Below, in pieces: positions 11,527 to 32,214 of a stretch of 64,000 nt of DNA; position 1 is the first letter of the stretch; each line of letters starts with the position of its first letter. The stretch comes from Lachnospiraceae bacterium (lineage in GTDB: Bacteria; Bacillota; Clostridia; Lachnospirales; Lachnospiraceae), in NCBI GenBank assembly GCA_017437785.1, contig JAFRXH010000088.1:36003-100002 (forward strand), in the 5' to 3' direction. The notes under the pieces are model-generated. The model was not told the origin of the DNA. It was given only the letters and a program-made list of their open reading frames with translations, and did no database searches. The position numbers and the translations under genes were made by a program.

Positions 11527-12455
11527 AACCGGTATATATGATCAATGGCTTTCTTGAGAGCGGAAAGACCAGCTTTATCAACTTCACGATCCAGCAGCCT
11601 TATTTCCAGATCAAGGGGCTTACGCTTCTGATACTGTGCGAGGAAGGCGAAGAGGAATATGATGAAAAGATCCTTAAGGCTGCAAAGACCGAAGTAAGGG
11701 TGATAGAGGATGAAGCAGACTTTAATGCAGCTAATCTTATAGCGATTGAAAAGGAGCTTAATCCCGAGCGTATAATCATCGAGTATAACGGCGTGTGGAA
11801 TGTAAAGAATATGAAACTGCCTTTCCACTGGAATGTGGAACAGCAGATCACACTTATCGATGCATCTACCTTCCCTACATACTACAGCAACATGAAATCC
11901 ATGGTTGCGGAGATGATAAGGAAATCCGAGCTCATTATCTTTAACCGCTGCGACAATGTTATGGATAATCTGGGAAGCTACAGGAGAAATGTTAAAGCTG
12001 TCAATGCTTCGGCGGATGTCATATTCGAGAACAAAGACGGAGAGATAAACGAGATATTCGAGGAGGATCTTCCTTATGATCTTAAGTCGGATAAGATAGT
12101 CCTTGACGATCAGTCCTACGGCATCTGGTACATGGATGTAATGGACCATATCGAGCGATACAGCGGAAAGACTATAGAGTTTGTTGCTATGGTCATGAAG
12201 CCGAAGGGATTTGAAGCAGATGCCTTTGTACCCGGACGTATGGCAATGACATGCTGTGCCGAGGACATGGCTTTCCTTGGATACGTCTGCAAATATGCGG
12301 GAGCCGATAAGCTTAAGGACCGTGACTGGGTAAAGGTCAGCGGTAAGTTAAAAAAGGAATTCCGAAAGGATTACAAGGGAGAAGGGCCGGTTATCTATGC
12401 GGAAAAGGTTGAGAGTACGCAGCGTCCGGCTAATGAAGTGATAGGATTTAATTGA
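11523..12455 (+). CDS. Second CobW-like GTPase, lacking the CxCC metal motif
   Basis: 310 residues. A degenerate but credible G1 loop GFLESGKTS (9-17) opens the protein and FNRCDNV resembles the G4 motif. The metal-binding CxCC of COG0523 proteins is missing: only one Cys (LILCEEGEEE) is found in that region. A C-terminal domain of CobW_C size follows. It starts inside the stop codon of the first GTPase and its stop shares a base with the next gene, so the two GTPases are probably made together and may act as a pair. Function unknown. Confidence 0.8.
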   Translation: MKPVYMINGFLESGKTSFINFTIQQPYFQIKGLTLLILCEEGEEEYDEKILKAAKTEVRVIEDEADFNAANLIAIEKELNPERIIIEYNGVWNVKNMKLPFHWNVEQQITLIDASTFPTYYSNMKSMVAEMIRKSELIIFNRCDNVMDNLGSYRRNVKAVNASADVIFENKDGEINEIFEEDLPYDLKSDKIVLDDQSYGIWYMDVMDHIERYSGKTIEFVAMVMKPKGFEADAFVPGRMAMTCCAEDMAFLGYVCKYAGADKLKDRDWVKVSGKLKKEFRKDYKGEGPVIYAEKVESTQRPANEVIGFN

Positions 12456-14785
12456 TGTCGGAAAGTAAGGGTAATAAATACAGCAGGTCATTGGTATTTG
12501 CGGCCACGGGTTTTTTATTCATTCTTTTTCTGATACTCTGGTACAAACAGTATACCTGTTTTAATTACGGCGAAGGCGGTCTTTATATGGACCGCCTTAA
12601 GCTTGCTGTGATAACGGGCGCTGCTGCGTTAGCATTTTTATCGCTTGCCGGAGCTATAGTATCGCTGGGCGCTTTTGCAAAAGCCGGAAAGACTTTCGGT
12701 GCATGCTTCTTCGGATTGGCATGCGTATGTTCTGTGGATGCGGTGGTAATGGGGATGATAGAGGAAGTCTCCTATATGTGCCCTGTGTTTACTGTAGCAG
12801 GGGTCTTTACGGCATTGGCAGCAACATTCCTCTATATGGACGATAAAGCACAGAGGCAGGGGAATACTGCAGCGGGGGCGATAGCGGCCGCTGCAGTGCT
12901 TGGCATGGCACTTTTTTTCCTTATGCTGTCGATACCGGATGGTACGCTTTTGGCTTATGTTTGCGGAGGCAAGTATTCGCTCACACGTATCGCGGGCTTT
13001 TGCAGCTGCTTTGGTCTTTTTATCCTTCTGTTCCTGCTTTTTGCGCTGAAGCGCTTAATGCCTTCTGTTACGGCGTTTCTTAAAGACTTTGCGGACAGTC
13101 TTTTTTTCCTGCCGTCTATGATACTGATACTTATCTGCCTTATGAGAGGGCAGTTTTCATATTTCTTTGAGAACGCACCGGTTTTTGTTAAGCTGATATC
13201 TGCAGCTGCCGTGGCGGCTCTGCTTTTCTTTGGGAGGAAGCTTTTTAACAAAGATCTCAGGCTGCCCCGCTTTGTTTTTGTATTATACTACGGCCTTATC
13301 TTAAGTCTGGTCTTTGCGCAGCACTGCATAATCAACTTCTGGGGCGGGGAAGTGGGTGACTTAAGGCACACGGGCATATTCTACAGGCCTTTGTATATAG
13401 TTGATAAGTTCCTTCCTTTCGGGGGGAAGAATATGGATATCTACGGTCATTACGCTTTGTTCTATAAGCCGTTTTTAATGATCTTCGGTAATAACATGCG
13501 TACGGTGGGAACAGTGACCGCAGTTGTGGCAGCTCTTTCGATGTTGTTTATCCTGTTGATAATGCATGCTTTGATCCGCAGCGATATCCTGAAAATATTT
13601 GGCGGCTTTATTCTGGTCAACGCCATAACCATCCCATGGCTTTATCTGCAGAATTTTCCCTGCCGTTTTTTATTCCCGGCTATGATACTGTATTTCATAT
13701 TGCGTATGGATACGGCTGCATACGGAAATCACGAAGGCAGCAAAGTCAGTCATCCTGAGGGCAGCGGCAAAGTCAGTCATCCTGAGGGCGTCAGCAAAGT
13801 CAGTCATCCTGAGGGCGTCAGCCCGAAGGATCTTCCCCGGCGTGTCGCAGGCTGCATTCTCTGCATGCTTGCCACACTGTGGAATACCGAAACAGGAGCC
13901 GTATGCGCACTCAGCTTTTCCGTCTATATCGCATTAAAAAAATGTGAAGGCAAAAAGCTCAAGGAACTGATTGCAGCCTTATTAAAAGAAGTCCCGTTTA
14001 TGGGACTCGAAATTCTGGCGGCTTTTGGCATCACAGCTTTATATAACCTGGCGGCAAAGAGCTTTGGAACAGCCGCATGGGGGATATTTTCAAGATCATC
14101 CGAGATTTTCGTTGTTGATCATGTGACTACCGGAAGTAACGGTATCTTAAGGTGGAGCAATGCTCCCTGGCTGTATATAATGATACTCTTTATGATACTG
14201 ACGGGTGTGCTGCTTTACAGGCTGGGCCTGGCGGATACAGGTAAAGAAGGTATCATCACAGCGCATAAGTATGACAGGGTATATATCTGCGCACTCCTGA
14301 TGAGCCTGGGATACTTTGTATACTGGATGACAAGACCGGAGGAATACGCGATAATCGCTGCGCCGCTTGCGATGATACTGCTTGTGCTTTATGAAAAATT
14401 GTCCGGCCGTAAAGACAAACCTTCAATAACGGCACTTATCATATTATCGCTGGCTCTTACGGCGTATGTGGGAAGCAGTGGTGTGACCATAGGCGCGCTT
14501 AGCGATAAGCTGGGTACTGATAAAGTGATGAGTGCATCTGCGATCGAAGATGATATAAAGAACTTTGAACTTAACGTACCTAAAGATTGTTACGGATATA
14601 CCTATGGCCTGCCTATGATATATATGCAGCTGGGCTGGGACATACGCTTTGACCGCTATGTCAGCATAGATGCAGAGGATTCGATGATAAGCGACGATCC
14701 CGGGCTTGAGATAGAGGGGATGAGCGTATCTAAGACTGTAAGTGTAGGAAAGACCGATTATTATTTGTATGAGAGAGTCAGATAA
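12455..14785 (+). CDS. Large polytopic membrane protein, probable GT-C/YfhO-like glycosyltransferase
   Basis: 776 residues from the ATG at 12455; a TTG one codon earlier is also possible. About a dozen or more hydrophobic helices alternate with short loops through residue 680, followed by a soluble C-terminal part of about 90 residues. No catalytic motif is certain. Position is the main clue: it lies next to a flippase and a polyprenol-phosphate-type GT2, the set seen in three-component glycosylation systems (CsbB/YfhO type), where the large membrane protein moves the sugar to the acceptor outside the cell. An in-frame run of three 27-base repeats encodes KVSHPEG units in one loop. Start overlaps the GTPase stop. 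Confidence 0.6.
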   Translation: MSESKGNKYSRSLVFAATGFLFILFLILWYKQYTCFNYGEGGLYMDRLKLAVITGAAALAFLSLAGAIVSLGAFAKAGKTFGACFFGLACVCSVDAVVMGMIEEVSYMCPVFTVAGVFTALAATFLYMDDKAQRQGNTAAGAIAAAAVLGMALFFLMLSIPDGTLLAYVCGGKYSLTRIAGFCSCFGLFILLFLLFALKRLMPSVTAFLKDFADSLFFLPSMILILICLMRGQFSYFFENAPVFVKLISAAAVAALLFFGRKLFNKDLRLPRFVFVLYYGLILSLVFAQHCIINFWGGEVGDLRHTGIFYRPLYIVDKFLPFGGKNMDIYGHYALFYKPFLMIFGNNMRTVGTVTAVVAALSMLFILLIMHALIRSDILKIFGGFILVNAITIPWLYLQNFPCRFLFPAMILYFILRMDTAAYGNHEGSKVSHPEGSGKVSHPEGVSKVSHPEGVSPKDLPRRVAGCILCMLATLWNTETGAVCALSFSVYIALKKCEGKKLKELIAALLKEVPFMGLEILAAFGITALYNLAAKSFGTAAWGIFSRSSEIFVVDHVTTGSNGILRWSNAPWLYIMILFMILTGVLLYRLGLADTGKEGIITAHKYDRVYICALLMSLGYFVYWMTRPEEYAIIAAPLAMILLVLYEKLSGRKDKPSITALIILSLALTAYVGSSGVTIGALSDKLGTDKVMSASAIEDDIKNFELNVPKDCYGYTYGLPMIYMQLGWDIRFDRYVSIDAEDSMISDDPGLEIEGMSVSKTVSVGKTDYYLYERVR
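13742..13822 (+). repeat. Three in-frame 27-base tandem repeats inside the polytopic membrane protein gene
   Basis: Units 13742-13768, 13769-13795 and 13796-13822; units two and three are identical and unit one differs at the last six bases. Each contains GTCATCCTGAGGG and encodes KVSHPEG plus two residues. The run is followed by CCGAAGGATCTT. The combination resembles a dispersed repeat seen in many bacteria (GTCATCCTGAG...CGAAGGATCT), here kept in frame. Confidence 0.9.
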
Positions 14786-16236: not shown

Positions 16237-16237
16237 T

Positions 16238-17185
16238 ATGTTGGTATCTGTTTGTATACCCTGTTACAGATCGGCCAAAACACTTCCTGTAGTGGTACAG
16301 AACATAAAGGAGGTGTTTGAGACCATGGAGGAGGATTACCAGATAGTCCTGGTAAACGACGGCTCCCCGGATAATACCTTTGGTGAGATACTTAAGCTGT
16401 GCAGGGAAGATGATAAAATAACCGGAGTTAACCTGACAAGGAATTACGGGCAGGCTTCGGCAAAGCTGGCTGCATTAAGACAGGCAAAAGGTGACTATGT
16501 CGTATTTATGGATGACGACGGACAGCATCCTGCAGAAGGCATACCTCTGCTCATTGGCAGGCTGAAGGAAGGGTATGATGTAGTCTATGCCGATTTCAAA
16601 AAGAAAAAGCACAGCCTGTTTAAGCGCATGACCAGCAGCATGCATAATGCGATAGCGGAATTTATGGGGAACAAACCCAAAGGGATAAAACGTTCCTCTT
16701 TTACGGCGTGGACCAGACCTGTGGTGGACGCGATGATCACATATAAGAGTCCCTTTGTATCCATAGGTTCATTCCTTATGTCGGTGACCACAAAGTACGC
16801 AAATGTAGAGGTTGAACATAAGGAACGTATAGAAGGCAAATCCGGATACACGCTTAAGAAGCTTTTTAAACTGTGGCTGAACATATTTATCAGTTTTTCG
16901 ATGATGCCTCTGCGTATGGCTACATATCTGGGCTTTTTGTTCTCGGGAGTCGGTTTTATCGGGATCATATATTTATTTGTCAGAAAGCTGGTACACCCCA
17001 CTAAGGTTGCAGGTTATACCAGTACCATGATCACGGTGCTGTTCATGAGCGGCGTCATAATGCTGATACTGGGAGTTATGGGTGAATATCTGGGAAGGAT
17101 ATATATGACGGTGAGCGGCATGCCGCAGTTTTACGTCAGAGAGGTGATCAATGGAAAAGACGATAACGAAAAGCTTCCTGGATGA
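16238..17185 (+). CDS. Family 2 glycosyltransferase, polyprenol-phosphate type with C-terminal membrane anchor
   Basis: 315 residues. GT2 features: VSVCIPCYRSAKTL at the start, LVNDGSPDNT, and the DXD-type MDDDGQHP near residue 92. Two membrane helices at about 224-245 and 263-285 follow, as in DPM1/GtrB/ArnC-type enzymes that load one sugar onto undecaprenyl phosphate. With the flippase and the large membrane protein it fits a three-component glycosylation system. The last 35 bases overlap the next gene. Confidence 0.88.
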   Translation: MLVSVCIPCYRSAKTLPVVVQNIKEVFETMEEDYQIVLVNDGSPDNTFGEILKLCREDDKITGVNLTRNYGQASAKLAALRQAKGDYVVFMDDDGQHPAEGIPLLIGRLKEGYDVVYADFKKKKHSLFKRMTSSMHNAIAEFMGNKPKGIKRSSFTAWTRPVVDAMITYKSPFVSIGSFLMSVTTKYANVEVEHKERIEGKSGYTLKKLFKLWLNIFISFSMMPLRMATYLGFLFSGVGFIGIIYLFVRKLVHPTKVAGYTSTMITVLFMSGVIMLILGVMGEYLGRIYMTVSGMPQFYVREVINGKDDNEKLPG

Positions 17186-18479
17186 AATGCGTAAATTTGC
17201 CGCTCAGCTGCCGGATCAGGAAGTACGCAGACAGGCTAAGCTATGTCTGGCCGATCATCTGGGCTGCGCATTCCTGGGGGCAAAGCTTACGGAAGGGATG
17301 TTTGATACCGAAGACGGGGATGTCCCTTTGATCGGAAGAAATAAAAAGAGCAGCATGCATACGGCGGCTCTTATAAACGGTATTTCAGCACATTATATCG
17401 AACTGGATGACGGACAGCGTTTTGCCATGCTGCATCCGGGTGCGCCGGTGATAAGTGCACTGATATCGGCAGCCTCTCATTACGCTATGGATGGAGAGAG
17501 CTTTTTAAGAGGCATCATCACCGGTTATGAGGCAACTATAAGACTGGGAGCAGCGATACAGCCCGGACATAAACTGAAGGGTTTTCATGCCACAGGAAGC
17601 TGCGGAACGATGGGAGCAGCGCTTGGGATAGCAGCCGCTCTTGGGCTTAAAGAAGAGGAATGGGACGCTGTTTTCTGTGCAGCGGCATCTGATGCGTGCG
17701 GACTGCTTCAGCTTATCGACGACGGTTCGGAGCTTAAGCCGTATAATATAGGGCGTGCCGCTGCAGCGGCTGTAAACGCCGTAATAACAGGCAGATCCGG
17801 TCTTAAGGGACCTTCGGATGTGCTGGGCGGTAAGAGAGGTTTCTTTGCAGCAATGTGTGCCGATGTCGATGAGAACAGACTGCTTAACGGTTTTGACGGC
17901 GGCTATGCCATAAAGACGATCTACCGTAAGCCCTATGCGGCCTGCCGGCATACACACGCGGCTATAGAAGGCGTGCTTAAACTGCGTGAGCAGTATTCAC
18001 TTATACCGGATGATACCGAGAGCATAGAGATAAGGACCTATGGTCTGGCTATAAAGGGGCATGAGCATACAGAGATAAAGGGTGCCGGATCGGCTAAGAT
18101 GAGCATGCCTTATTCGGTCGCAGCAGCCCTTAAATACGGCTGTGTGAATTATACGCAATATGATAAGGAATGCCTTGAAGACGAAGAGATCGCCGCTTTG
18201 ATGAAACGTGTAGTGATCAAAGAAGATCCTGAACTTTCGGCTTTAGTACCTGATAAGAGGGCAGCCATAGTAAGTATCTTAAGCGGCGGGGATACCTTAA
18301 GCTGCAGGGTGGACTATCCCAGGGGTGAACCGGAAAACCCGGTGAGCGCTTTGGAGATCAAAGATAAATATCTTTCATTGATGGATGCTGCGGGAACGGA
18401 GCGTGAGAGAAGTGAAGAGATATACGGATCGGCAATGAATGTAGAGAGCAGCTTAAGCGGGCTGCTGGCATTGTTATAA
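17151..18479 (+). CDS. MmgE/PrpD family protein (2-methylcitrate dehydratase-like)
   Basis: 442 residues, normal for the family. Visible: GCAFLGA near the start, SCGTMGAALGIAAALGL in the middle (about 147-163) and KPYAACRHTHAAIEG (about 261-275), the family active-site region. Relatives dehydrate or isomerise methylcitrate, aconitate or itaconate-type acids without an iron-sulfur cluster. There is no methylcitrate synthase or PrpB here, so propionate breakdown is unlikely. Its place among acid-modifying enzymes suggests synthesis of a special carboxylic acid. AGAGAGGTG precedes the ATG, inside the GT2 gene. Confidence 0.85.
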   Translation: MEKTITKSFLDEMRKFAAQLPDQEVRRQAKLCLADHLGCAFLGAKLTEGMFDTEDGDVPLIGRNKKSSMHTAALINGISAHYIELDDGQRFAMLHPGAPVISALISAASHYAMDGESFLRGIITGYEATIRLGAAIQPGHKLKGFHATGSCGTMGAALGIAAALGLKEEEWDAVFCAAASDACGLLQLIDDGSELKPYNIGRAAAAAVNAVITGRSGLKGPSDVLGGKRGFFAAMCADVDENRLLNGFDGGYAIKTIYRKPYAACRHTHAAIEGVLKLREQYSLIPDDTESIEIRTYGLAIKGHEHTEIKGAGSAKMSMPYSVAAALKYGCVNYTQYDKECLEDEEIAALMKRVVIKEDPELSALVPDKRAAIVSILSGGDTLSCRVDYPRGEPENPVSALEIKDKYLSLMDAAGTERERSEEIYGSAMNVESSLSGLLALL

Positions 18480-18489
18480 AGGAGATATG

Positions 18490-19383
18490 ATGGAAAAGAC
18501 AAGAGCTTTCTTAAAGAGCATAGGACTTCCGGAGGGAGACGATTATTCGCTTAAGACCTCCGATAAGCGTTTTGCGGACGGAGGGCAGTTCCGTTTTGAG
18601 GTGCCGGGCATACAGGGACCAAAGGTCATGCAGGCTCTTCTTGAGGCACTTGAAGGCTATAAGATACCTATTCACCGGGTTACGCAGACAAAGGGCATAT
18701 GGACTCTGCTGGATGAAGAGATCAGTGAGATGGTAAGGCTGGCTTCGGAATATCATCTCCAGCTGATACTGGCTATAGGACCCAGGGCCACTACCGATAC
18801 CAGTGCATCCGTACATACCCCGGAGGGACAGCGTATGGGATACCGCCTGCGCGGACAGGAGCAGATAGTACGTGCCATCGAGGATGTCAAACGTGCTGCA
18901 GGCCTGGGATGCAGGGGCTTTCTGGTATACGATGAAGGCTGCTTATGGATATTAAATGAGATGCGTAAGGCCGGGGAACTTCCGGCTGACTGCCACTTTA
19001 AAGTATCGGCGCATACAGGACACGGAAATCCCTGCTCTGCTAAGCTTTTGGAAAGCATAGGTGCCAATTCGATCAATCCCGTAAGGGATATACAGCTGCA
19101 GATGCTTGCGGCGATGAGACAGGCTATAGATATCCCGATAGACATACATACTGAGAATCCTGAATCATCGGGAGGGTTCATCCGCCATTATGAGGTACCG
19201 GAGATGATAAGAGTGGCTGCACCGCTTTATCTTAAGACAGGCGGTTCCGTGGCCAAGACCCACAGCTGGGATTCCAGCGTAGATGATGCAAAGAAGAGGG
19301 CCAAGCAGATAGTGCTGGTCAAGAGAGTTATAGATGAGTATTATCCGGATGCGGTGGTATCGGCATCGGAATGGAAGAGATGA
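18490..19383 (+). CDS. Probable TIM-barrel enzyme, U32-peptidase-like, function unknown
   Basis: 297 residues from the ATG at 18490, five bases after AAAGGAG; an ATG at 18487 is only two bases from that site and less likely. The alternating beta/alpha pattern (LILAIGPRA, RGFLVYDEG, FKVSAHTGHGNP, DIQLQMLAAMRQ, PIDIHTENPESS) suggests a TIM barrel. I recall U32-peptidase labels on similar proteins, but no U32 signature is certain. Conserved-looking His, Glu and Asp residues (SAHTGHGN, DIHTEN) may bind metal. It sits between the PrpD-like and ATP-grasp genes, so a role in the same acid pathway is inferred. Confidence 0.55.
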   Translation: MEKTRAFLKSIGLPEGDDYSLKTSDKRFADGGQFRFEVPGIQGPKVMQALLEALEGYKIPIHRVTQTKGIWTLLDEEISEMVRLASEYHLQLILAIGPRATTDTSASVHTPEGQRMGYRLRGQEQIVRAIEDVKRAAGLGCRGFLVYDEGCLWILNEMRKAGELPADCHFKVSAHTGHGNPCSAKLLESIGANSINPVRDIQLQMLAAMRQAIDIPIDIHTENPESSGGFIRHYEVPEMIRVAAPLYLKTGGSVAKTHSWDSSVDDAKKRAKQIVLVKRVIDEYYPDAVVSASEWKR

Positions 19384-19387
19384 TAAG

Positions 19388-20629
19388 ATGGTAGCGATCA
19401 TACTTGGCGGGGTTGTTCCCCACATTGAGTTGATAGAGGACCTTAAGAAGCGGGGGTATACCACACTTCTTCTGGATTATCTTGAAAATCCGCCGGCTAA
19501 GGCATATGCGGATGAATTTTTGCGTGTCAGTACTCTTGACAGAGAGGCGGTACTTGAGATAGCCATGCAAAGGAAGGCGGATCTCATAATAACCATTTGT
19601 GTAGATCATGCGAATGTAACGATGTGTTATGTTGCTGAAAAGCTTGGACTGCCGCTTCCTTACAGTTATGATACAGCAATAAAGACTACCGATAAGGGTA
19701 TAATGAAACAGTGCATGTTCGACGGAGGGATACCGACATCGGAATTTAAGCTTTTGTACGAAAACGATCCGCTTCCGGAAGATCTTGAGTTTCCTGTTGT
19801 GGTAAAACCGGTAGATAATAACGGATCAAAGGGTGTCAAGCGTGCGAATGACCGCACCGAACTTGAAAAATATGTGAAAGCGGCTTTTGCTTTTTCGCGT
19901 AAAGGCCAGGTTATCGTAGAGGAGTTCAGCGACGGTATAGAGATCCAGGTTGACTGCTTTGCCAATGAAGGAAAAGCGCATGTGATCATGACTAGAAAAA
20001 AACTCGAGATGCCCCGAAAAGAAGGGCTTGCACTGCAATCGATAGGATCCGTGATACCCGCACCGCTTAAGAAAGAACATATAGATGAGTTCAGATCCAT
20101 AGCCGATAAGATGGTCAGTGTTTACGACTTTGAGCATACACCTTTCTTCTTTCAGGCCAAGCTGAAGGGCGATAAGATAAAGGTTCTGGAGGTAAGTCCG
20201 AGGATAGGCGGAGGGCTTAGTTATAAGATGCTCAAGAGCCAGATGGATTTTGATGTGGTAGACACGATCATAGATTCCTATTTCGGAAATGTGGATTCCA
20301 TAAATATCAGACCTAAAGAGCAGTATATGCTTACGGATATCGTGTATGCGGGGGGCGGGGTTTTTGATCATGTCGAAGGTGCCGCGCAGATGATCGAAGA
20401 AGGCGTGATAGACAGTTTTGATCTGATGATAGATAAGGGCAAGGATATGGGAAGCGATATGGACAGCCGTAACAGGGTTGGTGCTTATCTGATAACAGCG
20501 GCAACAAAGAATGATATCCTTAAGAAAGCCCAAACAGCATTTGAGAATATCGCTGTGATCGATAATGAAGGACATGTGATGAGCAGAGGAGATATCTGCT
20601 ATAAGGGAGAAGAAAATGAGGCATCATAA
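19388..20629 (+). CDS. ATP-grasp ligase
   Basis: 413 residues from the ATG at 19388; an in-frame ATG at 19334 lies inside the preceding gene and is rejected. ATP-grasp features: FPVVVKPVDNNGSKGVK (about 136-152) for the nucleotide-binding lid and KVLEVSPRIGGGLSYKM (about 269-285) with the metal-binding residues. Such enzymes form an acyl-phosphate from a carboxylate and join it to an amine or thiol. It overlaps the HpcH/HpaI-like gene by 14 bases; the same two families also travel together in tellurite-resistance (Ter) associated loci. The substrate is unknown. Confidence 0.85.
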   Translation: MVAIILGGVVPHIELIEDLKKRGYTTLLLDYLENPPAKAYADEFLRVSTLDREAVLEIAMQRKADLIITICVDHANVTMCYVAEKLGLPLPYSYDTAIKTTDKGIMKQCMFDGGIPTSEFKLLYENDPLPEDLEFPVVVKPVDNNGSKGVKRANDRTELEKYVKAAFAFSRKGQVIVEEFSDGIEIQVDCFANEGKAHVIMTRKKLEMPRKEGLALQSIGSVIPAPLKKEHIDEFRSIADKMVSVYDFEHTPFFFQAKLKGDKIKVLEVSPRIGGGLSYKMLKSQMDFDVVDTIIDSYFGNVDSINIRPKEQYMLTDIVYAGGGVFDHVEGAAQMIEEGVIDSFDLMIDKGKDMGSDMDSRNRVGAYLITAATKNDILKKAQTAFENIAVIDNEGHVMSRGDICYKGEENEAS

Positions 20630-23238: not shown

Positions 23239-24091
23239 AGATGAGTTTGATCTGGTTGCGGATAAAACTGCCGGGGCCCTTATTAGGGCATCGTCGTGTT
23301 TCCGTACAGATAAGTATGATGCTTATAAAGCAGCTATAGAAACAGATGACGGCTTATCCTGTTGGGCGATGGAGCAGATCGTTGAGAATGCACATATCGC
23401 GGAGAAGGATTCTTCGCCTTTATGTGATGATACAGGTATACCCCATGTGATACTCGAGGTGGGAAAAAACAGACAGATAAGCGGCATGACTCTGGAGGCT
23501 GTACAGGAAGGTATAAGACGCGGGCTTCGCAGGCTGCCCGGCAGACCGATGGCTGTTAAGGGCGATGATAAGCAGCGCATCGACCAGTCGCTTGGTTTAT
23601 TTGAAGACTCAGAGGAAGTGCTTCCCGCACCTTTTACTATACGGTATTCGGATGATGAGGAACGGTTAAGGCTGCATATATTGATGCTTGGCGGAGGTCC
23701 CGAGATCAGAGCCAGGACTTACCGTGTATTTCACAGGCACAGTATCGATATAGTGTTATCCGAGATAACAGGCTGGGCTGTGGAGTCTGTATCACAGCTT
23801 GGCTGCAGTCCCTGTACGCTGGCTGTGGGCATAGGCAGATCGCATTATGAGGCTTCCAACCTTATGCTTCAGGCTATGGCTGAGGGCAGATATGACAGGC
23901 AGTCTGAATATGAGAAGTTTATCACCGGCGAGGTGAATAAAAGCAATACCGGAGCATTGGGATTGGGAGGAAAGACGTCTGTACTGGCTACATTTATGAA
24001 GATCGGGCCGCAGCGTGCCAGCGGCGTCCGTATAGTATGCATGCGCCCCTGCTGCTGTTTTGAACCCCGTGTATACAGTGTAGATCTATAG
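23231..24091 (+). CDS. Class I fumarase/L-tartrate dehydratase alpha subunit
   Basis: 286 residues from the ATG at 23231; an ATG at 23204 is inside the beta gene. It carries the [4Fe-4S] region: LCDDTGIP (about 68-75), GCSPCT (about 195-200) and a C-terminal VCMRPCCCFEPRV with several cysteines. The class adds or removes water at a C=C bond of a dicarboxylic acid. The split alpha/beta form is usual in Clostridia, but its position inside a surface-modification cluster is not. Enzyme activity would be oxygen sensitive. Confidence 0.88.
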   Translation: MNKDEFDLVADKTAGALIRASSCFRTDKYDAYKAAIETDDGLSCWAMEQIVENAHIAEKDSSPLCDDTGIPHVILEVGKNRQISGMTLEAVQEGIRRGLRRLPGRPMAVKGDDKQRIDQSLGLFEDSEEVLPAPFTIRYSDDEERLRLHILMLGGGPEIRARTYRVFHRHSIDIVLSEITGWAVESVSQLGCSPCTLAVGIGRSHYEASNLMLQAMAEGRYDRQSEYEKFITGEVNKSNTGALGLGGKTSVLATFMKIGPQRASGVRIVCMRPCCCFEPRVYSVDL

Positions 24092-24095
24092 TAAT

Positions 24096-25472
24096 ATGGA
24101 TACTTTGAAAAAGATATTAAAATACATAGCCGTACCGGTTCTGGTGCTTGTACTGTTTATGACAGGAGAGATATATCTTGGCAGGCTGGTGACACCCGTT
24201 ACCGATGCGGACTATTTCAATATGGATGTGGCTGCGATAGAGGCGGCGGGGCAGGATGTGGATCTTATGTTTCTTGGTTCATCCAGGATCTACAGGAGTT
24301 TTGTACCCGAAGAATTTGAAAAGAATCCGGCTTTTGATCTGTGCCTGGTATGCGGTTCGTCTTCCCAGAAGATGGATGCTTCATATTATATGCTTAAGGA
24401 TATGTACTCACGGGTCCATCCCCAAACCGTGGTACTGGGGGTACAGTGGAATTCCTTTGATACGGAGGGGGCAAACTCCGTTAAGATGGAAAATATACTT
24501 AAGGTATACGACAGGATAAGTGCCGCCGGTAAGGCCGGATATATATTCAGAAGTGTGGGGACGGATGTATTTCCCGAACTGTTTTATCTGTACCGTTACA
24601 GGTCGCGTTTTTCAAATGAACGTATAGAAGAAAACAACAGGGACAAAGAAGAATTAAGAACACATGGGTATACTCCGGATACGAGTCAGGATTATTACTA
24701 TCTTTCAAAAGGGTTTAATTATTCCAATGTAAATGTTGAGAACGGTAATATGGTCATTGAGACCAAAGGAGTAAACAGGTACGAACCTGAGCGCTTTGAC
24801 AGTGATCTGGTAAAGTATCTTGACAGGATAACTGCGTTCTGTAAAGAGAAGGGGATCAGACTGATACTGGTATCTCCGCCAAACGCTATGATGACGCTGT
24901 ATTATGTTGAGAATATACAGGGCGCCATGGACTATTTTGCTGATTACGCTTTACGTAACGGATTGACTTATCATAATCTCAATCTGTTAAAGGGAAGAGA
25001 ATCCCTGCTTAAAGATGAAATATACTATGACGGCTGGCATTTTTCGGGAGAAGGAGCATATATTATCAGTGATCTGTATGCTCAGATACTTGAAAAGGAA
25101 CTGGCAGGAGAAGATATAAGTGATATGTTTTATCAGGATCTGGAAGCTTTAAAGCAGGAAGTCGATCGTGTAGTAGCTGTTTCTGCCGTGGCGGAAGTGT
25201 CGGATGATGAGATCCATATCAGTATTCACAGCCTTCATAATGATGGTGATGTTCCGTTGTATAAGCTTGAGATATCGGAAGATGGCGGAAAGAGTTATGA
25301 GTGTGTGTATGACTGGAGCGAAGATGAGCTGCTTAAGATCAAGATCCCCGCGAAAGAGGCTGTAATGTATAAGATAAGTGCCGCACTTTCCGAAGATGAT
25401 GAGTATCCGGCGTGGCAGGTATATGATATCGGCAGCTGGTTAGATCCGGAAAAAGGAGAGGAAATATATTGA
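24096..25472 (+). CDS. DltD-like membrane-anchored SGNH protein, copy 1
   Basis: 458 residues. One N-terminal membrane helix (about 8-26), then a large extracellular domain of SGNH type: catalytic Ser block LMFLGSSRIYRS (61-64 is GSSR) and a C-terminal D-x-x-H pair, D312 and H315 in DGWHFSGEGAY. After about residue 360 comes a beta-rich extra domain. The layout resembles DltD and AlgX/WssF-like partners of MBOAT acyltransferases, which finish acyl transfer outside the cell. About a third to a half identical by eye to copy 2 at 29389. Its stop overlaps the TTG start of the following ligase. Confidence 0.75.
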   Translation: MDTLKKILKYIAVPVLVLVLFMTGEIYLGRLVTPVTDADYFNMDVAAIEAAGQDVDLMFLGSSRIYRSFVPEEFEKNPAFDLCLVCGSSSQKMDASYYMLKDMYSRVHPQTVVLGVQWNSFDTEGANSVKMENILKVYDRISAAGKAGYIFRSVGTDVFPELFYLYRYRSRFSNERIEENNRDKEELRTHGYTPDTSQDYYYLSKGFNYSNVNVENGNMVIETKGVNRYEPERFDSDLVKYLDRITAFCKEKGIRLILVSPPNAMMTLYYVENIQGAMDYFADYALRNGLTYHNLNLLKGRESLLKDEIYYDGWHFSGEGAYIISDLYAQILEKELAGEDISDMFYQDLEALKQEVDRVVAVSAVAEVSDDEIHISIHSLHNDGDVPLYKLEISEDGGKSYECVYDWSEDELLKIKIPAKEAVMYKISAALSEDDEYPAWQVYDIGSWLDPEKGEEIY

Positions 25473-26875
25473 TCTGGGATCTTCAGAAATTTGCTGAAAA
25501 AACAGCGCTTATTGAAGGCGATGATAATATTTCTTACGCTGAGCTGTATGAGCGCACTCAGGTTCTGATAAAGGGGCTTCGCAAGCGCTCACTGGCTTTC
25601 ATCCTTTGCAGCAATACCGCTGAATGTGTCATTGGATATACGGCTTTCTTGAATTACGGGATAGTTCCTCTGATGCTTGATGCTGCGCTTAATACGCAGA
25701 CAGTAGGATCTATGGTCGCATGTTATGCTCCGGCTTATATCTGGGTGCCTCAGGAACTCAAAGAAGGATTTGAAGCTTATTTACCTATAAGGTCAATGGG
25801 CGGCTACGTTCTTCTGGAAGCCGATGCTTGTGATGATGTTGAGCTTAATGATGAACTGGCGCTTTTAATATCAACATCAGGTTCCACCGGAAGTCCCAAG
25901 CTGATACGTTTAAGCTATGACAACATCATATCAAATACAAAGGCAATCATCGAATATCTTAAGATAGACGGCAATGAACGCGCGATCGCGTCGCTGCCGC
26001 TCAATTATGTATACGGACTTTCTGTCCTTAACACACATCTCTATGCTGGCGGCAGCCTGGTGCTGACAAAGGATAACTGCTATTCAAAGAAGTTCTGGGA
26101 CTGTTTTGAACAAAACAGCTGCACATCCTTTGCAGGCATTCCTTTTATGTATGAGATGATGGATAAGCTGGGGTTTACAAAAAAGACAGTTGCCACGTTA
26201 AGGACCATGACCCAGGCGGGAGGCAAGCTTTCTCCTTTGCTGCATGAAAGATTTGCGGAGTATGCGGCTGCAAAGGGGATCAGCTTTGTGGTGATGTACG
26301 GCGCATCCGAGGCTACGGCCCGTATGGGATATCTTCCCGCAGATATGGCTGTTGCCAAGAAGGGCAGCATGGGTATCGCAATACCCGGAGGACGTTTTGA
26401 GATACTGGGTGAAAATGATGAAGTACTGACAGGGGCTGATGAAAAAGGCGAGCTGATATACTATGGCGACAATGTAAGCCTTGGATATGCACAGTGCAGA
26501 GAAGACTTAAAGCTTGGCAACGTGAATCACGGCAGGCTTCAGACCGGAGATATGGCATACAGGGATCAGGACGGATTCTATTATATTTACGGACGTAAAA
26601 AGCGTTTTATAAAGATCACCGGTAAACGTACCAATCTGGCCGAAGTGGAGATGATGATAAAGGAACACTTTGATATAGTTGATGCTGCCTGTGCCGGTGA
26701 GGATGATTCACTGGATATATATATCACGGATGAAAAGCTTAAAGAGGATATCTGTTCGTTTGTATATGAAAAGTTTAAGATAAACCGTCATCTTTTCCAT
26801 GTGTATGTAATAGATGATATACCCAAGAATGCGGCGGGAAAGGTGCAGTATGCGGCGCTAAAGCCAAAGGAGTGA
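25469..26875 (+). CDS. AMP-forming acyl/aminoacyl ligase (DltA-like), copy 1
   Basis: 468 residues. Starts with TTG at 25469, overlapping the previous stop (TTGA); AAAAGGAGAGG eight bases upstream fixes this start, and no suitable ATG exists. Adenylation motifs: LISTSGSTGSPKLIRL (A3), YGASEATARMGYL (A5), LQTGDMAY (A7) and the C-terminal Lys of NAAGKVQ (A10). It should activate a carboxylic acid as the adenylate and load it on the carrier protein at 27591. The sequence is short for the family and differs from copy 2, so the two may use different acids. Confidence 0.87.
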   Translation: MIWDLQKFAEKTALIEGDDNISYAELYERTQVLIKGLRKRSLAFILCSNTAECVIGYTAFLNYGIVPLMLDAALNTQTVGSMVACYAPAYIWVPQELKEGFEAYLPIRSMGGYVLLEADACDDVELNDELALLISTSGSTGSPKLIRLSYDNIISNTKAIIEYLKIDGNERAIASLPLNYVYGLSVLNTHLYAGGSLVLTKDNCYSKKFWDCFEQNSCTSFAGIPFMYEMMDKLGFTKKTVATLRTMTQAGGKLSPLLHERFAEYAAAKGISFVVMYGASEATARMGYLPADMAVAKKGSMGIAIPGGRFEILGENDEVLTGADEKGELIYYGDNVSLGYAQCREDLKLGNVNHGRLQTGDMAYRDQDGFYYIYGRKKRFIKITGKRTNLAEVEMMIKEHFDIVDAACAGEDDSLDIYITDEKLKEDICSFVYEKFKINRHLFHVYVIDDIPKNAAGKVQYAALKPKE

Positions 26876-26878
26876 GTA

Positions 26879-27535
26879 ATGGAAGAGAAGAATTACAAAC
26901 AGCATCCTGATGCAACTGTAAAGCAGAGCCGTATAGGTGAAAAGTCCAGTATCGATAAAGACAGTGTTATCTTATGCAGCGAGCTGGGAGCTTTTGTCGA
27001 TATAGAAAAAAGAAACCTTATAAGGGATTCGGTGATAGGTGATATGAGTTATACCGGTGCCGATACCAGTATACTATGGGCAGAGATAGGCAAGTACTGC
27101 TGTATATCAAGATTGGTGGATATAGGCGGGAATGAGCATGCCTACAAGCACGTGACGATGATGCCCGAATACCGCATGAAGAACAAGCTGGAGGGTAAAC
27201 TGTTAAAACATCCGGATGAGAATAAGATTAAGATTGGAAATGACGTATGGATAGGGGCGGGAGCCATGATACTCAGAAAGCCCGGCCTTTCCATAGGAGA
27301 CGGTGCGGTGATAGGTGCAGGCTCAGTGGTTACCAGATCGGTGCCACCCTATGCGATAGTAGCAGGAACACCGGCAAGGATCATTTCCTACAGGTTTTTA
27401 AACGAAGTGATAAACTTTATGCTCAAACTTAAATGGTGGGACTGGAGTTTTGAGAAGGTTAAAGAGAACATGGACCTGCTCATGAACGAGCCGGATATCG
27501 AAGAGCTTAAGAAATTAATGCTGGATAAAATGTGA
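26879..27535 (+). CDS. Left-handed beta-helix (hexapeptide repeat) acetyltransferase
   Basis: 218 residues. Hexapeptide repeats run through most of the protein; the C-terminal half has DVWIGAGAMILRKPGLSIG and GAVIGAGSVVTRSVPPYAIV, then GTPARIISYRF, the end of xenobiotic-acetyltransferase-type enzymes. These trimers move an acetyl or other acyl group from CoA to a hydroxyl or amine of a sugar or small molecule. NEHAYKHVTMMP contains the likely catalytic His. The gene lies between the first ligase and the carrier protein, so an acylation step on the sugar or on the acid is the natural guess. Confidence 0.88.
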   Translation: MEEKNYKQHPDATVKQSRIGEKSSIDKDSVILCSELGAFVDIEKRNLIRDSVIGDMSYTGADTSILWAEIGKYCCISRLVDIGGNEHAYKHVTMMPEYRMKNKLEGKLLKHPDENKIKIGNDVWIGAGAMILRKPGLSIGDGAVIGAGSVVTRSVPPYAIVAGTPARIISYRFLNEVINFMLKLKWWDWSFEKVKENMDLLMNEPDIEELKKLMLDKM

Positions 27536-27564: not shown

Positions 27565-27590
27565 AACAAGGTTAAAAGGAGGAAAAAATA

Positions 27591-27815
27591 ATGGAAGAAC
27601 TTTTACGTATCATGTCAGGAATAAGAGATGACATCGATTTTACAAAGGAAAAAAAGCTCATTGATGATGAACTGTTGGATTCATTCGACATTATTTCCAT
27701 CGTGAGCGAAGTAAACGAGCATTTTGGCATAGAGATCAATGTTGATGATCTGCTTCCGGAGAATTTCAACAGTGCCGAAGCGCTTTATGAGCTAATAAAG
27801 AAGATGCAGGGATAA
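27591..27815 (+). CDS. Acyl carrier protein (DltC-like)
   Basis: 74 residues, very acidic, helical. The phosphopantetheine serine is Ser31 in LLDSFDIIS, matching the DSL/DSM site of carrier proteins. It should carry an acid activated by one of the two ligases and present it to the MBOAT protein encoded next, as DltC does for D-alanine. Only one carrier gene serves two ligases in this block. Confidence 0.93.
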   Translation: MEELLRIMSGIRDDIDFTKEKKLIDDELLDSFDIISIVSEVNEHFGIEINVDDLLPENFNSAEALYELIKKMQG

Positions 27816-27821
27816 TATGAA

Positions 27822-29402
27822 ATGAATCTTGTATCTCTTAGTTGCCTTTGCTTTGCAACTATTACGGTATTATTATACTTTGTTATGCCACAGAAGATCA
27901 GATGGCTGGTACTGTTGGCGGCAAACGTTTTCTTCTACATTACATACGGGCCGGCATATATCGTATTTCTTATACTGTGTGCGGCAATAAGCTGGATCTT
28001 TGCCATAATACTCGAAAAAAACATTTCCGCATCAGCACAGAAGCTTAAAGGCGTTGAAACAAAAGAAGAAAAAGATTTATTACGCAAGCAGGGGATAAAG
28101 CAGAAAAAGCTTTTATGTGCTGTTGCGGTTATTTTGTTGCTTGCTCCGTGGATCGTGATCAAATATGGCAGATTCATAATGGAAAACGTATCTGCGTTTC
28201 TTTCGACCTTCAGCATAAGCATGGAAAGACCGGAAAGAACACTTATCCTCCCTTTGGGTATGTCCTTTTATGTATTTCATGCCATAGGCTATGTTGTGGA
28301 TGTATACCGCGGTAAATACCCTGCTGAAAAAAACTTCTTTAAGTATTTCACGTTTGTATCTTTTTTCCCTCATATCACAGAGGGACCGTTCAGCCGATAT
28401 AATGAGCTGGGAAAAGAGATATTTGAAGAACATCACTTTTCTTATGACAGACTGTCCGAAGGCTGTGCGCGTATACTTTGGGGAGCATATAAAAAAGTAG
28501 CCATTGCAGATATTCTGGCAGGTTATATCAATACTACACTTGGCAATTATGAGGATTATGGTTTTATACTTATCTGCTTTGCCGTAGTACTATACAGTTT
28601 TCGTATATATGCAGACTTCTCGGGATACATGGATATGATGTGCGGCTTTTGTCATATACTGGGGATCGAGCTTTCAGAGAACTTTAAGCAACCGTTTATG
28701 GCTAAGACAGTAGATGAGTATTGGCGCAGATGGCATATTACTTTGGGAAAGTGGTTCAGGGATTATGTATTCTATCCCGTTTCAATGAGTAAAACAGGAA
28801 CTAAGCTGTCTAAATGGGCAAGAGGGAAATGGGGAGCCAAAACAGGAAAGCTCATAGCAGGACATCTGGCATTATTCTTTGTATGGACAGCAACAGGTTT
28901 ATGGCATGGTGCTAACTGGACATTCCTGGTTTGGGGATATCTTAACTTTATCGTGATACTTTCAACTACCCAGCTTGAGGAAACCTACAAGGGTATCAAA
29001 GCAAAGCTTCATATCAATTCCGATAGTTTTATCTGGAAGGCTTTCTGCGTTTTCAGGACATTTATTCTGATAAGTATTTTCAGATTCTTTTCTCTGTCAT
29101 CAAATATGGGTACGGCGCTGGCAACTATAGGACATGCATTTTCCAATTTCAGGATAAAGGAAGTTAATCATGTGCTCTTCTTTTTCAAAAATATAAGCGG
29201 AGAGTATGTCCTGCTTCGCGATGTGGGAATAATAGTACTTATAATTGTCGATGTGCTTTGCGAGTCGGGGAAATGGGAGACTGTAAAAAAGAAATGTCCG
29301 GCGCCGATACGTGCCATGCTATATGCTGCTATGCTGCTGATCCTTATTATAGCAGCTCCGGGAAGTGACGTTTCAGAGGGATTTATGTATGCGGATTTCT
29401 GA
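27822..29402 (+). CDS. MBOAT family O-acyltransferase (DltB/AlgI-like)
   Basis: 526 residues with about 11 membrane helices. The MBOAT signature is intact: WRRWHITLGKWFRDYV with His305 and GLWHGANW with the catalytic His362. It passes an acyl group from the carrier protein through the membrane to an acceptor outside, probably with the DltD-like protein whose start overlaps its stop. It is nearer in size to AlgI-type proteins than to DltB (about 400 residues). Located seven bases after the carrier protein gene. Confidence 0.93.
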   Translation: MNLVSLSCLCFATITVLLYFVMPQKIRWLVLLAANVFFYITYGPAYIVFLILCAAISWIFAIILEKNISASAQKLKGVETKEEKDLLRKQGIKQKKLLCAVAVILLLAPWIVIKYGRFIMENVSAFLSTFSISMERPERTLILPLGMSFYVFHAIGYVVDVYRGKYPAEKNFFKYFTFVSFFPHITEGPFSRYNELGKEIFEEHHFSYDRLSEGCARILWGAYKKVAIADILAGYINTTLGNYEDYGFILICFAVVLYSFRIYADFSGYMDMMCGFCHILGIELSENFKQPFMAKTVDEYWRRWHITLGKWFRDYVFYPVSMSKTGTKLSKWARGKWGAKTGKLIAGHLALFFVWTATGLWHGANWTFLVWGYLNFIVILSTTQLEETYKGIKAKLHINSDSFIWKAFCVFRTFILISIFRFFSLSSNMGTALATIGHAFSNFRIKEVNHVLFFFKNISGEYVLLRDVGIIVLIIVDVLCESGKWETVKKKCPAPIRAMLYAAMLLILIIAAPGSDVSEGFMYADF

Positions 29403-30764
29403 TAAGAAGACAGTCAGCTCGCTGCTTGTATTGCTTTTGACGGTATTATTTTTTCTGCAGGATTGAGTATTCTTGGAACGATATCCACACCGGTGAGCGA
29501 TTCGGATAAGTTTAATTATGATGTAAACCGGATCATTAAAAGCGGAAAGAATGTTGATATTCTGTTTCTCGGCACTTCCAGAGTACACAGAAGTACCGTG
29601 CCGTCGGTTATCGAAGAGATGACCGGCGCCGGAACGTGTCTGGTAGCTGCATCGGCATCTCAGAAACTGGACGGAACATATATGCTGGTCAAGGATCTGT
29701 ATGAGAGAGTGCATCCTAAAGTGATCGTTGTAGGCGTTCAGTGGAATTCGGTCAACAGGGATTTCTCACAGTTTATGAGAGAGGAAAGTGTTCTTAAATC
29801 ATTTGACAGGATGGGAACACTCAGCCGATCGGCTTATATGCTCGAGCATATGGGGGAGAAAGAGTGGCCCCAGTTGTTTTATCTTTACAGATACAGACAT
29901 AGTTTTAGTATTGAGAATCTGATAAAAAACATAAAGGACAGAACGGAGCTTTCACTGAATGGCTATGAAGGGGATGATGACGGAGATATATACTATCATG
30001 GTATGGGGTTTAAATATGGAAAGACTTCGCTTAAAAAGGGGAATATTCCAGTCGGTGTTAAGGGTATCCCCCAAGTTGATAAAGACGATCCCGACCCTTA
30101 TATGATGGAGTGTCTGAATGGGATAGTGAGTTTTTGCAAGGAAAAGAATATAAGGCTGATACTGTATTCTCCGCCGGAGACGCTGATGAATCTTTATTAC
30201 ATAGAGAATTACCAGGATGCTGTTGATCTTTATAAAGAGTATGCAAAGGCAAACGGGATCGAGTATCTGGATATGGAACTTCTGCGTAACAGGGAAGAGA
30301 TCCTTAGCGATGATAAGTTCAGCGATGCTTGGCATCTAAGCGGAGAAGCAGCGTATAAATATAGTGAAGTGTTTGGTGAAATACTGGATAAAACACTCAA
30401 GGGAGAAGATGTAGGATCATATTTCTATCCTGATTTTGAATCATTAAAAAAAGATGTTAAGAGGATCGTAGCCATGCAGGCTGCGGTAACGACAGATGGC
30501 TACAGTATAAAGATAAGTTTGTCAAGTCTGCAGAATGAAGATGTTACACCTTTATATAGAGGAGAAGTCTCTGATGACGGGGGAGCTACCTTTTATAGTT
30601 TATTTGACTGGACTGCACAGACAGAGCTTGAATTTGATATAAAAGATAATTCTGATCTGATTTTCAGGTTTCATGCATGGAGCGGAGTCGAAGGTGAAGA
30701 TGAGGCATGGCAGCTTTGTGGGATGGGAGAGAAAGAGGATAATAATAATGAAGACTGTGATTGA
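29389..30764 (+). CDS. DltD-like SGNH protein, copy 2, with a -1 frameshift in the membrane anchor
   Basis: The main frame (29463-30764) starts only with TTG and lacks an anchor. Upstream, ATG 29389 overlaps the MBOAT stop, follows AGAGGG, and encodes a short basic stretch and a hydrophobic helix that stops at TGA 29464. Slipping back one base at the T6 run 29449-29454 joins the two into one protein of about 458 residues, aligned end to end with copy 1: anchor, TPVSDSDKFNYD, then the Ser block LFLGTSRVHRS, then D-x-x-H in SDAWHLSGEAAY. The gene is either frameshifted by a lost T, phase variable, programmed, or a sequencing error. The last 17 bases overlap the next ligase. Confidence 0.72.
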
Positions 30765-32214
30765 ATATATAGCAAAATATGCGGCAGATGATAAATATCG
30801 TGGCAGGATGGCATTGGTTGACGCGAATGAGGAACTGACATATGCCATGCTCTGGAGACGTATGAGAGGGTATGCGCAGAACCTTGTTGATAAAGGTGTG
30901 AAGAAGGGCGACTATATACTTATACGATGTACACAGGACGCAGCTTTCCTGACTGCTATGCTGGCTGTTCAATGTGCGGGGGCAATCCCGGTACCGCTTG
31001 AAAAAGATGCAGGTCCTATGCGTATAAAAGAGATAAGTGAAGATACCAAGGCTGTACTTTATATTGATAACAAAGAAACGCAGGTATCCATGGATCAGTT
31101 CAGAATGCCGGGAACGGAAGACGATAATATATCTGTATACGATAATATGTTTTTTCCCAAAGCCGATGATATATCGGAGGTTCTTTTTTCCACAGGAACA
31201 ACCGGCAAGTCGAAGGGCATAGTTATAACCTTTAAAAATAATATAGCTCTTGCAGAGAATATAACCGAAGGTGTAAAGATGAGCAGGGATAATGTGGAAC
31301 TCATACCCATGCCGCTTTCCCACAGCCATGGGTACAGACGAAGCCTGGCTAATCTTTATTTCGGAAATACCGTGATAATAATAGGCGGAGTTATGGCTGT
31401 TAAACAGATGTTTAATATGATGGAAAAATACAGGGTAACTGCGATAGACCTTGCTCCGACGCTTTTAGCTATCATCTTTAAGCTGTCTAAAGATAAGATA
31501 GGAGATTATAAGGATCAGCTGGATTATATACAGCTGGGCAGCGCACCGCTTGTTGAAGAGGATAAGCAGCATTTGAAAAAGCTTTTGCCGGATACCAGAC
31601 TGTATAATTTCTACGGCAGTACCGAGGCAGGATGCAGCTGCATACTTGATTTTCAGGATGAGACCATCAGACCGCACTGTATAGGCCGGGCTACTAAGAA
31701 TGCAGAATTTATTTTTGCGGATGAGAATAAGAACAGGGTTGAAGCGGATAAGGATCATCCTGCTTTTATAGCTACCGGCGGTGCACAGAATATGAAGGAA
31801 TACTTTAATGCGCCTGACCTGACAGCGCAGGCCGTTAAGGATGGGTATATCTATACCAGTGATCTGGGATATATCGATTCCGAAGGTTATATATATTGTC
31901 TTGGCAGGCAGGATGATGTTATCAATTTTGCAGGAGTCAAGATCAGCCCGGATGAGATAGAAACAGAAGCGGTCAAATGTGAAGGCGTTAAGGATGCTGC
32001 ATGCGTACCGGTTGCCGATAAGACATACGGGCAGGTGCCGAAACTCTTTGTAAGTATTGAGGAAGGGTATGAGGGCTTTTCGGGAAAAAACTGCCTGGAT
32101 ATGTTAAAAAAAGTCCTGGATGCAAATAAAGTCCCCAAATATATCGAGATTATAGATGAGATACCCAGAACGTCGAACGGAAAGATACAGAGAAAGAAAC
32201 TAATCGGTATCTGA
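30748..32214 (+). CDS. AMP-forming acyl/aminoacyl ligase, copy 2
   Basis: 488 residues from the ATG at 30748 (after GAAAGAGGA); an earlier in-frame ATG at 30673 lies deep in the previous gene. Adenylation motifs: LFSTGTTGKSKGIVI (A3), NFYGSTEAGCSC (A5), YTSDLGY (A7) and the C-terminal TSNGKIQRKKL with the catalytic Lys. It has the layout of acyl-CoA synthetases and DltA-like enzymes and differs clearly from the first ligase. Substrate unknown; it may load the same carrier or form a CoA ester. Its end overlaps the end of the convergent ABC ATPase gene by 15 bases. Confidence 0.87.
   Translation: MKTVIEYIAKYAADDKYRGRMALVDANEELTYAMLWRRMRGYAQNLVDKGVKKGDYILIRCTQDAAFLTAMLAVQCAGAIPVPLEKDAGPMRIKEISEDTKAVLYIDNKETQVSMDQFRMPGTEDDNISVYDNMFFPKADDISEVLFSTGTTGKSKGIVITFKNNIALAENITEGVKMSRDNVELIPMPLSHSHGYRRSLANLYFGNTVIIIGGVMAVKQMFNMMEKYRVTAIDLAPTLLAIIFKLSKDKIGDYKDQLDYIQLGSAPLVEEDKQHLKKLLPDTRLYNFYGSTEAGCSCILDFQDETIRPHCIGRATKNAEFIFADENKNRVEADKDHPAFIATGGAQNMKEYFNAPDLTAQAVKDGYIYTSDLGYIDSEGYIYCLGRQDDVINFAGVKISPDEIETEAVKCEGVKDAACVPVADKTYGQVPKLFVSIEEGYEGFSGKNCLDMLKKVLDANKVPKYIEIIDEIPRTSNGKIQRKKLIGI

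Follow-up and report, generated by a model that had tools for sequence, protein, structure and literature searches.

In the canonical Dlt system, D-alanine is carried from DltB to DltD by the tyrosine of an FXYXXF motif on a separate microprotein, DltX, and other MBOAT-SGNH pathways (MBOAT, membrane-bound O-acyltransferase) bear this motif on the MBOAT itself, have no carrier protein and evidently use acyl-CoA, as described in PMC12148441. Here we analyse a block of 17 plus-strand genes at positions 12452-32214 of a 64,000-nucleotide stretch of DNA (the window) from a gut bacterium of the Lachnospiraceae (assembly GCA_017437785.1, contig JAFRXH010000088.1, positions 36,003 to 100,002), where a Dlt-like set lies behind a conserved enzyme core. 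The block shares with Dlt (DltA-B-C-D-X) an AMP-forming ligase, a carrier, an MBOAT and an SGNH-type protein in one operon, but it differs in its acid-type ligase motifs, in lacking DltX, in bearing the shuttle motif on the MBOAT and in having a putatively acid-making core alongside. With PatAB-type MBOAT-SGNH pathways, as PMC12148441 describes them, it shares an MBOAT with a C-terminal FXYXXF shuttle and an SGNH partner, but the window also has a carrier protein.

The core resembles methylcitrate and itaconate chemistry (PrpD, cis-aconitate decarboxylase, CitE-like lyase) in its PrpD and CitE-like families, but the window's proteins score below the curated cut-offs and no CoA transferase is among the 17 genes. 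Its CitE-like protein belongs to Pfam family PF15617, which is linked to Ter operons, but no phosphoribosyltransferase is found among the 17 genes, whereas a relative on a Brevibacillus plasmid has one adjoining. The parts of the block are of known kinds, and what it probably does is make an unusual small acid and attach it to surface sugars, so joining a widespread, uncharacterised acid pathway to a variant of a known cell-wall decorating machine.

A first-pass annotation, made from the sequence alone, had given this gene content, order and strand, all of which were borne out; its statement that most genes overlap was too strong, as overlaps (counted from the longest reading frames) occur at 7 of the 16 junctions and the remaining 9 gaps span 1-60 bases. 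Family matches were obtained for the flippase, the glycosyltransferase of family 2 (GT2), MmgE/PrpD, the ATP-grasp ligase, the CitE-like lyase, the D-2-hydroxyacid dehydrogenase (HDH), both class I fumarase halves, the two AMP-binding ligases, the hexapeptide transferase, the carrier and the MBOAT. The genes are listed below, loci and genomes compared with them bearing L and G numbers.

12452..14785, plus: large polytopic protein (777 aa), candidate GT-C-type glycosyltransferase; no Pfam or NCBIfam family; 58% identical in L023
14785..16236, plus: flippase-like polysaccharide exporter; Polysacc_synt, 73.6 bits
16238..17185, plus: polyprenyl-phosphate-type GT2 glycosyltransferase; Glycos_transf_2; best NCBIfam matches ArnC-type PRK10714 and PgfS, both below cut-off
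17151..18479, plus: MmgE/PrpD-family enzyme (core); in 55 of 57 core loci
18487..19383, plus: TIM-barrel protein (TIM), most conserved core enzyme; 77-81% identity in six other Lachnospiraceae genera
19334..20629, plus: ATP-grasp ligase, by family scans
20616..21749, plus: CitE-like C-C bond lyase/aldolase (core); PF15617, 375.7 bits
21758..22726, plus: D-2-hydroxyacid dehydrogenase (HDH); 2-Hacid_dh_C, 199.6 bits
22729..23238, plus: class I fumarase-like hydro-lyase, beta half (core; FumC in locus counts); 56 of 57 loci
23204..24091, plus: class I fumarase-like hydro-lyase, alpha half (core; FumN in locus counts); 54 of 57 loci
24096..25472, plus: DltD-like SGNH-type protein (DltD1), anchored; Ser motif and D-x-x-H motif; no Pfam family
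25469..26875, plus: Lig1, AMP-forming ligase with acid-type motif; AMP-binding family, without the amino-acid Asp
26879..27535, plus: hexapeptide-repeat acyl/acetyltransferase, by family scans
27591..27815, plus: carrier protein with an LDSF phosphopantetheine-type site; PP-binding, alignment
27822..29402, plus: MBOAT O-acyltransferase with C-terminal FMYADF (FXYXXF acyl-shuttle motif); family and motif
29463..30764, plus: second DltD-like copy (DltD2), anchor out of frame; absent from the syntenic L209
30673..32214, plus: Lig2, AMP-forming ligase with acid-type motif; AMP-binding family, without the amino-acid Asp

A search for TIM relatives matched 383 stretches and gave 341 relatives, the best 80 of which were kept; many are metagenome bins, so that taxon labels may err. 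Locus counts use the 57 of these 80 loci in which TIM is flanked by 4.5 kb or more on each side, the 23 with less on one side being left out. PrpD recurs in 55 of the 57, the CitE-like gene in 55, FumC in 56 and FumN in 54, and since all 220 of these matches lie on the strand of TIM, the arrangement is more than chance. PrpD, TIM, the CitE-like enzyme and the fumarase-like pair make up a module that recurs in several bacterial phyla. Of 250 genomes sampled within Lachnospiraceae, 7 have TIM, the six besides the window's own at 77-81% identity, and among the best 80 of the 341 relatives, identities near 80% occur in records titled Clostridia, Erysipelotrichaceae, Victivallales, Bacteroidales and Fibrobacter. 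Such high identity across phyla points to transfer. Among the open-licence PMC papers listed by literature searches, judged by their titles and the start of their abstracts, none has this core or its exchangeable finishing step as its subject.

TIM matches no Pfam or NCBIfam family at E<=0.001, and sequence profiles run against the PDB returned no solved relative, only chance-level matches. Homologues in two plasmid records are named 'U32 family peptidase', and one distant homologue weakly matches UbiU (18.5 bits) and TrhP (15.5 bits), both of them U32-type models. The best solved relatives of PrpD are a B. subtilis IRG1-like protein and iminodisuccinate epimerase, and both presumed metal-site motifs of the CitE-like protein are kept in 70 of 76 core copies. 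The fumarase-type enzyme of the first-pass annotation does belong to the class I fumarase family, but it appears to be a divergent hydro-lyase, since its alpha half reaches 88.4 and 86.9 where the fumarase models require 276 and 100.65, and its beta half 82.1 where 145 is required, thresholds that the fumarase next to a distant TIM homologue (L134) exceeds. The alpha half reads CDDTG or CDDSG in 70 of 70 core copies and CQDTG in 3 of 4 catabolic relatives read, the fourth giving no match.

Every one of the 57 core loci has an enzyme of a family acting on 2-oxoacids: a phosphonopyruvate-decarboxylase-type thiamine pyrophosphate enzyme in 38 (alongside which an aldo/keto reductase is counted in 37 of the 57), an HDH in 17 and an Ldh_2 dehydrogenase (LDH2) in 4. 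Exactly one of these finishing classes is present in 55 loci, two in 2 and none in 0, and none of the three was found in eight core-less surface loci (6.8-20 kb long) picked by their DltD relative. The simplest reading of this pattern is that the core makes a 2-oxoacid and that the finishing enzyme sets its fate; from these genomic data we infer that the 2-oxoacid is a non-central one. The ATP-grasp ligase follows the same division, being present in 19 of 19 hydroxyacid-type but 16 of 37 decarboxylase-type loci (Fisher p=1.7e-5, with queries from the window and L061, the two-class locus L079 left out and the loci related to each other), and the window-type ATP-grasp in 17 of 19 against 2 of 37. 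This would be expected if the ligase couples the carboxylate that the decarboxylase removes. Exchange of the finishing enzyme can be seen between close relatives: L023/L209 are syntenic with the window and have a TIM protein 97% identical to its own, yet they have LDH2 where the window has HDH. In the same comparison the ATP-grasp ligase (35%), DltD1 (50%) and the polytopic protein (58%) have diverged further than the other neighbours (70-97%). On a TIM tree the finishing type changes at least 11 times, the tree being weak, with 5 of 60 inner branches well supported.

One could also imagine that the core is degradative and consumes the acid instead of making it. Among 20 loci fetched for distant TIM relatives, four (L134, L136, L139 and L140) have TIM homologues of about 52-57% identity beside Ldh_2 and fumarase halves in what are probably catabolic operons, with a malic enzyme in L134 and, by eye, a TRAP-type transporter in L136. 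None of these four gave a PrpD or CitE match, though, and many core loci adjoin surface-sugar genes (a DegT aminotransferase in 22 of 57, a sugar transferase in 17 of 57), which makes degradation by the core improbable. A further distant relative, L142, lies beside an HDH, and others of the 20 have no Ldh_2, fumarase halves or HDH. The recurrent pairing with hydroxyacid dehydrogenases supports the view that TIM acts on or next to a 2-oxoacid. On an Enterobacter chuandaensis plasmid (L153), a TIM homologue is clustered with an APH-type kinase, a 2-hydroxyacid dehydrogenase, an aminotransferase and a haem-oxygenase-like enzyme, with an enolase nearby on the other strand, a possible small-molecule pathway; neither this cluster nor the catabolic ones revealed the reaction of TIM. 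In L025 (14325-15374), L026 (14293-15288) and L054 (14271-15311), a membrane protein that looks acyltransferase-3-like by eye lies between the HDH and fumarase-like genes and is perhaps another transferase for the core product.

The phosphonate branch runs through phosphonopyruvate decarboxylase plus a reductase, or through a dehydrogenase, and the core loci of relatives share its type of decarboxylase. All 7 core copies tested of this enzyme lie above the TIGR03297 cut-off (phosphonopyruvate decarboxylase), as does the one near a phosphoenolpyruvate (PEP) mutase in L033. Unlike that branch, most core-bearing genomes have no PEP mutase over the cut-off: it is missing in 39 of the 52 tested (47 of the 80 loci plus 5 G genomes, many of them metagenome bins that may be incomplete), including the window's genome, G000, which has no match to TIGR02320 (PEP mutase). 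The 13 genomes with one comprise 11 of 31 decarboxylase-type and 2 of 16 hydroxyacid-type genomes (p 0.17). Near the core, a PEP mutase of about 50% identity occurs only in L033 and L051, and the 25-27% matches in L066 and L081 are likely chance. PEP mutase as a general feeder of the decarboxylase was rejected, as 20 of the 31 decarboxylase-type genomes have none over the cut-off, Acetatifactor muris being an example of the type without one, while such feeding is possible in the other 11. That the 2-oxoacid is phosphonopyruvate made by a route without PEP mutase seems extremely improbable to us.

Turning to the Dlt-like set, we compared its ligases at a motif whose Asp binds the amino group of an amino-acid substrate. 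Lig1 (PLNYVYG) and Lig2 (PLSHSHG) lack this Asp, as does the L100 ligase (PLNHVGG), whereas both amino-acid-type controls have FD there (PFYFDNS and PFFFDAS). Among the 30 carrier loci kept from a search of the family, 21 have an MBOAT above 50 bits within the 1.5 kb flank and 16 have readable ligase motifs, that of the window's own locus being unreadable; the Asp is present in 16 of these 16, 12 of which have the MBOAT within that flank. The DltA score alone is not decisive, since the cut-off of 559.85 is missed by the window's ligases (129.8 and 73.9) and also by the amino-acid-type ligases of G184 and G025 (323.9 and 242.1), and it was passed in 0 of 9 genomes. The best solved relatives of Lig1 are oxalate-, 2-succinylbenzoate- and malonyl-CoA ligases, which lends weak support to the dicarboxylic acid proposed by the first-pass annotation. 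An ordinary D-alanylation system that merely neighbours unrelated metabolic genes would account for the resemblance of the carrier, MBOAT and DltD to Dlt parts, but not for the Asp missing from both ligases nor for the core being kept as a unit elsewhere. The plain Dlt reading was rejected on the ligase residues, and we consider it very improbable.

The carrier, with its LDSF site, scores 26.2 bits against a DltC cut-off of 68 and lies directly upstream of the MBOAT, which has RRWH and GLWHG motifs and scores 143.4 bits against a DltB cut-off of 375. No separate DltX-like shuttle protein was found in the window, where the only other frames ending in FXYXXF are two antisense ones of 30 and 40 codons. 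Other carrier-MBOAT sets have similar ends (FMYAQF in L188, FMYEQF in L191, FLYMQF in L021), or ends with a final tyrosine (FMYEIY in L189, FIYRAY in L100), so the layout of a carrier with a fused shuttle is not confined to the window. The carrier-MBOAT-DltD sets of L188, L189 and L191, all with an MBOAT ending that starts FMY, have no core beside them, and the layout may be common in the family. None of the open-licence PMC papers listed by literature searches, by title and start of abstract, has such a carrier-fed fused-shuttle MBOAT as its subject. In L019 (8928-11495; G165), the gene immediately before TIM encodes a polytopic membrane protein whose end resembles the carrier (E 2.1e-12), perhaps with two carrier-like domains by eye; it could be a fusion of carrier and membrane protein.

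Of the two DltD-like proteins annotated earlier, the first is anchored. For the second, an anchor-like stretch starts at ATG 29389, overlaps the end of the MBOAT gene and stops at 29464 (window:29389-29470), and the catalytic part runs in another frame. This split is possibly decay or a sequencing error, and the nearest syntenic relative (L209) has a single DltD. The annotated acetyltransferase is corrected to a hexapeptide transferase without an assigned substrate.

Whether core and acylation set form one system was then judged from where each occurs. In the window, L023/L209 and L054 the core is joined with acid-type ligases, and L100 has another arrangement, with the carrier and MBOAT between FumN and PrpD and a ligase of the acid type. 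A joint system as first annotated therefore stands for the window's lineage (plus L100) and does not hold generally. Several points weigh against it. The carrier and MBOAT are both near the core in 3 of 57 loci (L100 and, from the window's lineage, L023 and L054; the flanks reach 10 kb at most, a limit that may hide further cases), and the core is found in 0 of 8 loci fetched for relatives of DltD1, 3 of which (L188, L189 and L191) have a DltD together with carrier and MBOAT. In most relatives examined, the acid enzymes stand apart from the acylation genes, the outcome named beforehand as refuting such a system. Carriers are common without the core, being present in 118 of 250 family genomes, 112 of them outside the 7 with TIM. 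G184 (L021) has the carrier and MBOAT beside the core, but its ligase is of the amino-acid type, and its Dlt-like set probably carries an amino acid. Why there should be two ligases for one carrier is unexplained by this reading, and Lig2 finds its top solved match in a peptide synthetase at 141.5 bits, with 2-succinylbenzoate-CoA ligase on a par at 141.0. While a Lig2 relative (81%) adjoins the carrier set in L209, in G667 Lig2 (69%, L208) is apart from it, sharing a contig with the core but lying beyond the core locus, the position that Lig2 has in the genome of L054. FumN was not found in L054, a member of the window's lineage. Kinship among the loci inflates the counts, 'oxoacid' is deduced solely from the families of the finishing enzymes, no core enzyme has an assigned substrate and TIM has no assigned reaction. 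Finally, the difference between G000 and its congener G004 described below fits gain in the former or loss in the latter alike.

These points leave room for two independent decorations, in one of which the ATP-grasp ligase would attach the core acid, in the cytoplasm, to the polyprenyl-linked sugar that the GT2 makes; after flipping, the polytopic protein would transfer the product. The carrier-MBOAT-DltD set would decorate that glycan separately, with a different acid. Relatives of the GT2 (at least 50% identity) adjoin the core in 6 of 19 hydroxyacid-type loci and those of the flippase in 4 of 19 (flippase relatives at this level adjoin the core in L021, L023, L025, L026 and L054 overall), 4 of the 6 GT2 loci (L024, L025, L026 and L080) lack the carrier-MBOAT pair, ATP-grasp is in all 19, and L021 has core, GT2 and flippase together with an amino-acid-type set. 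Yet in the window's lineage Lig1 is of the acid type and lies directly behind the core, and in L100 the core has a carrier, an MBOAT and a ligase of the acid type next to it, with no match to that GT2. We regard two decorations as possible though doubtful. Since an acid-type ligase lies directly behind the core, the joint reading is the better one for the window's lineage, and we hold it an even call that the block is a surface-glycan decoration island joining the core acid to the carrier-MBOAT-DltD set.

In such an island, PrpD, TIM, the CitE-like enzyme and the fumarase-like pair would build a non-central 2-oxoacid, which HDH would reduce to a 2-hydroxyacid; in relatives, the Ldh_2 dehydrogenase would probably give the other stereoisomer, and the decarboxylase with the aldo/keto reductase an alcohol without that carboxylate. 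The ATP-grasp ligase, which tracks the carboxylate-keeping loci, may couple the remaining carboxylate. In the window's lineage the acid-type Lig1 and/or Lig2 would load an acid onto the carrier, and, by analogy with Dlt and PatAB, the MBOAT would hand it to the tyrosine in the FMYADF shuttle at its own C-terminus, from which DltD1 would pass it to a glycan. The polytopic protein, the flippase and the GT2 would add a sugar to the same glycan. The link to glycosylation drawn by the first-pass annotation fits the position of the conserved core among surface-glycan genes, and the identity and attachment of the acid are our conjecture. What the sequences themselves show is the gene content, the conservation of the core, the pattern of finishing enzymes, the lack of the amino-acid Asp, the shuttle motif fused to the MBOAT and the presence or absence of the block relative to a congener.

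The block is real, and glycan decoration is its best explanation, at about even confidence. It is missing from the corresponding site in the congener G004, where a carbamoyltransferase lies about 50 bases after the CobW2 match, in turned orientation; in the window that carbamoyltransferase comes only after the block and the ABC transporter that follows it. G667 has the core on a 138 kb contig without the block-preceding CobW gene in the 10 kb fetched on either side; that gene stands on a different contig, and after it, close to where this contig ends, comes a 35% relative of the polytopic protein. Directly before the block in the window, and overlapping it, are two CobW-type genes (10393-12455), the second with a DUF1980 (TIGR03943-like) domain, and beside it lie an NMT1-like/ABC transporter set and a LysR regulator (32200-35677), absent at the same place in G004.

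Going further, we think it possible, though less likely than not, that the core is an undescribed route to a non-central 3-substituted pyruvate that decorates surface glycans in several phyla, with an exchangeable finish giving an alcohol, a D-hydroxyacid (HDH) or an L-hydroxyacid (Ldh_2), and that in the window's lineage export uses a third MBOAT-SGNH architecture, carrier-fed and with a built-in shuttle. One enzyme family of the core has no assigned reaction and keeps about 80% identity between distant genera, and a carrier-fed MBOAT with a built-in shuttle would be a natural test of the Dlt/Pat acyl-relay model. If our reading is right, one conserved core would supply different surface chemistries through the exchange of one or two genes, and the acyl diversity of gut bacterial glycans would be predictable from sequence.

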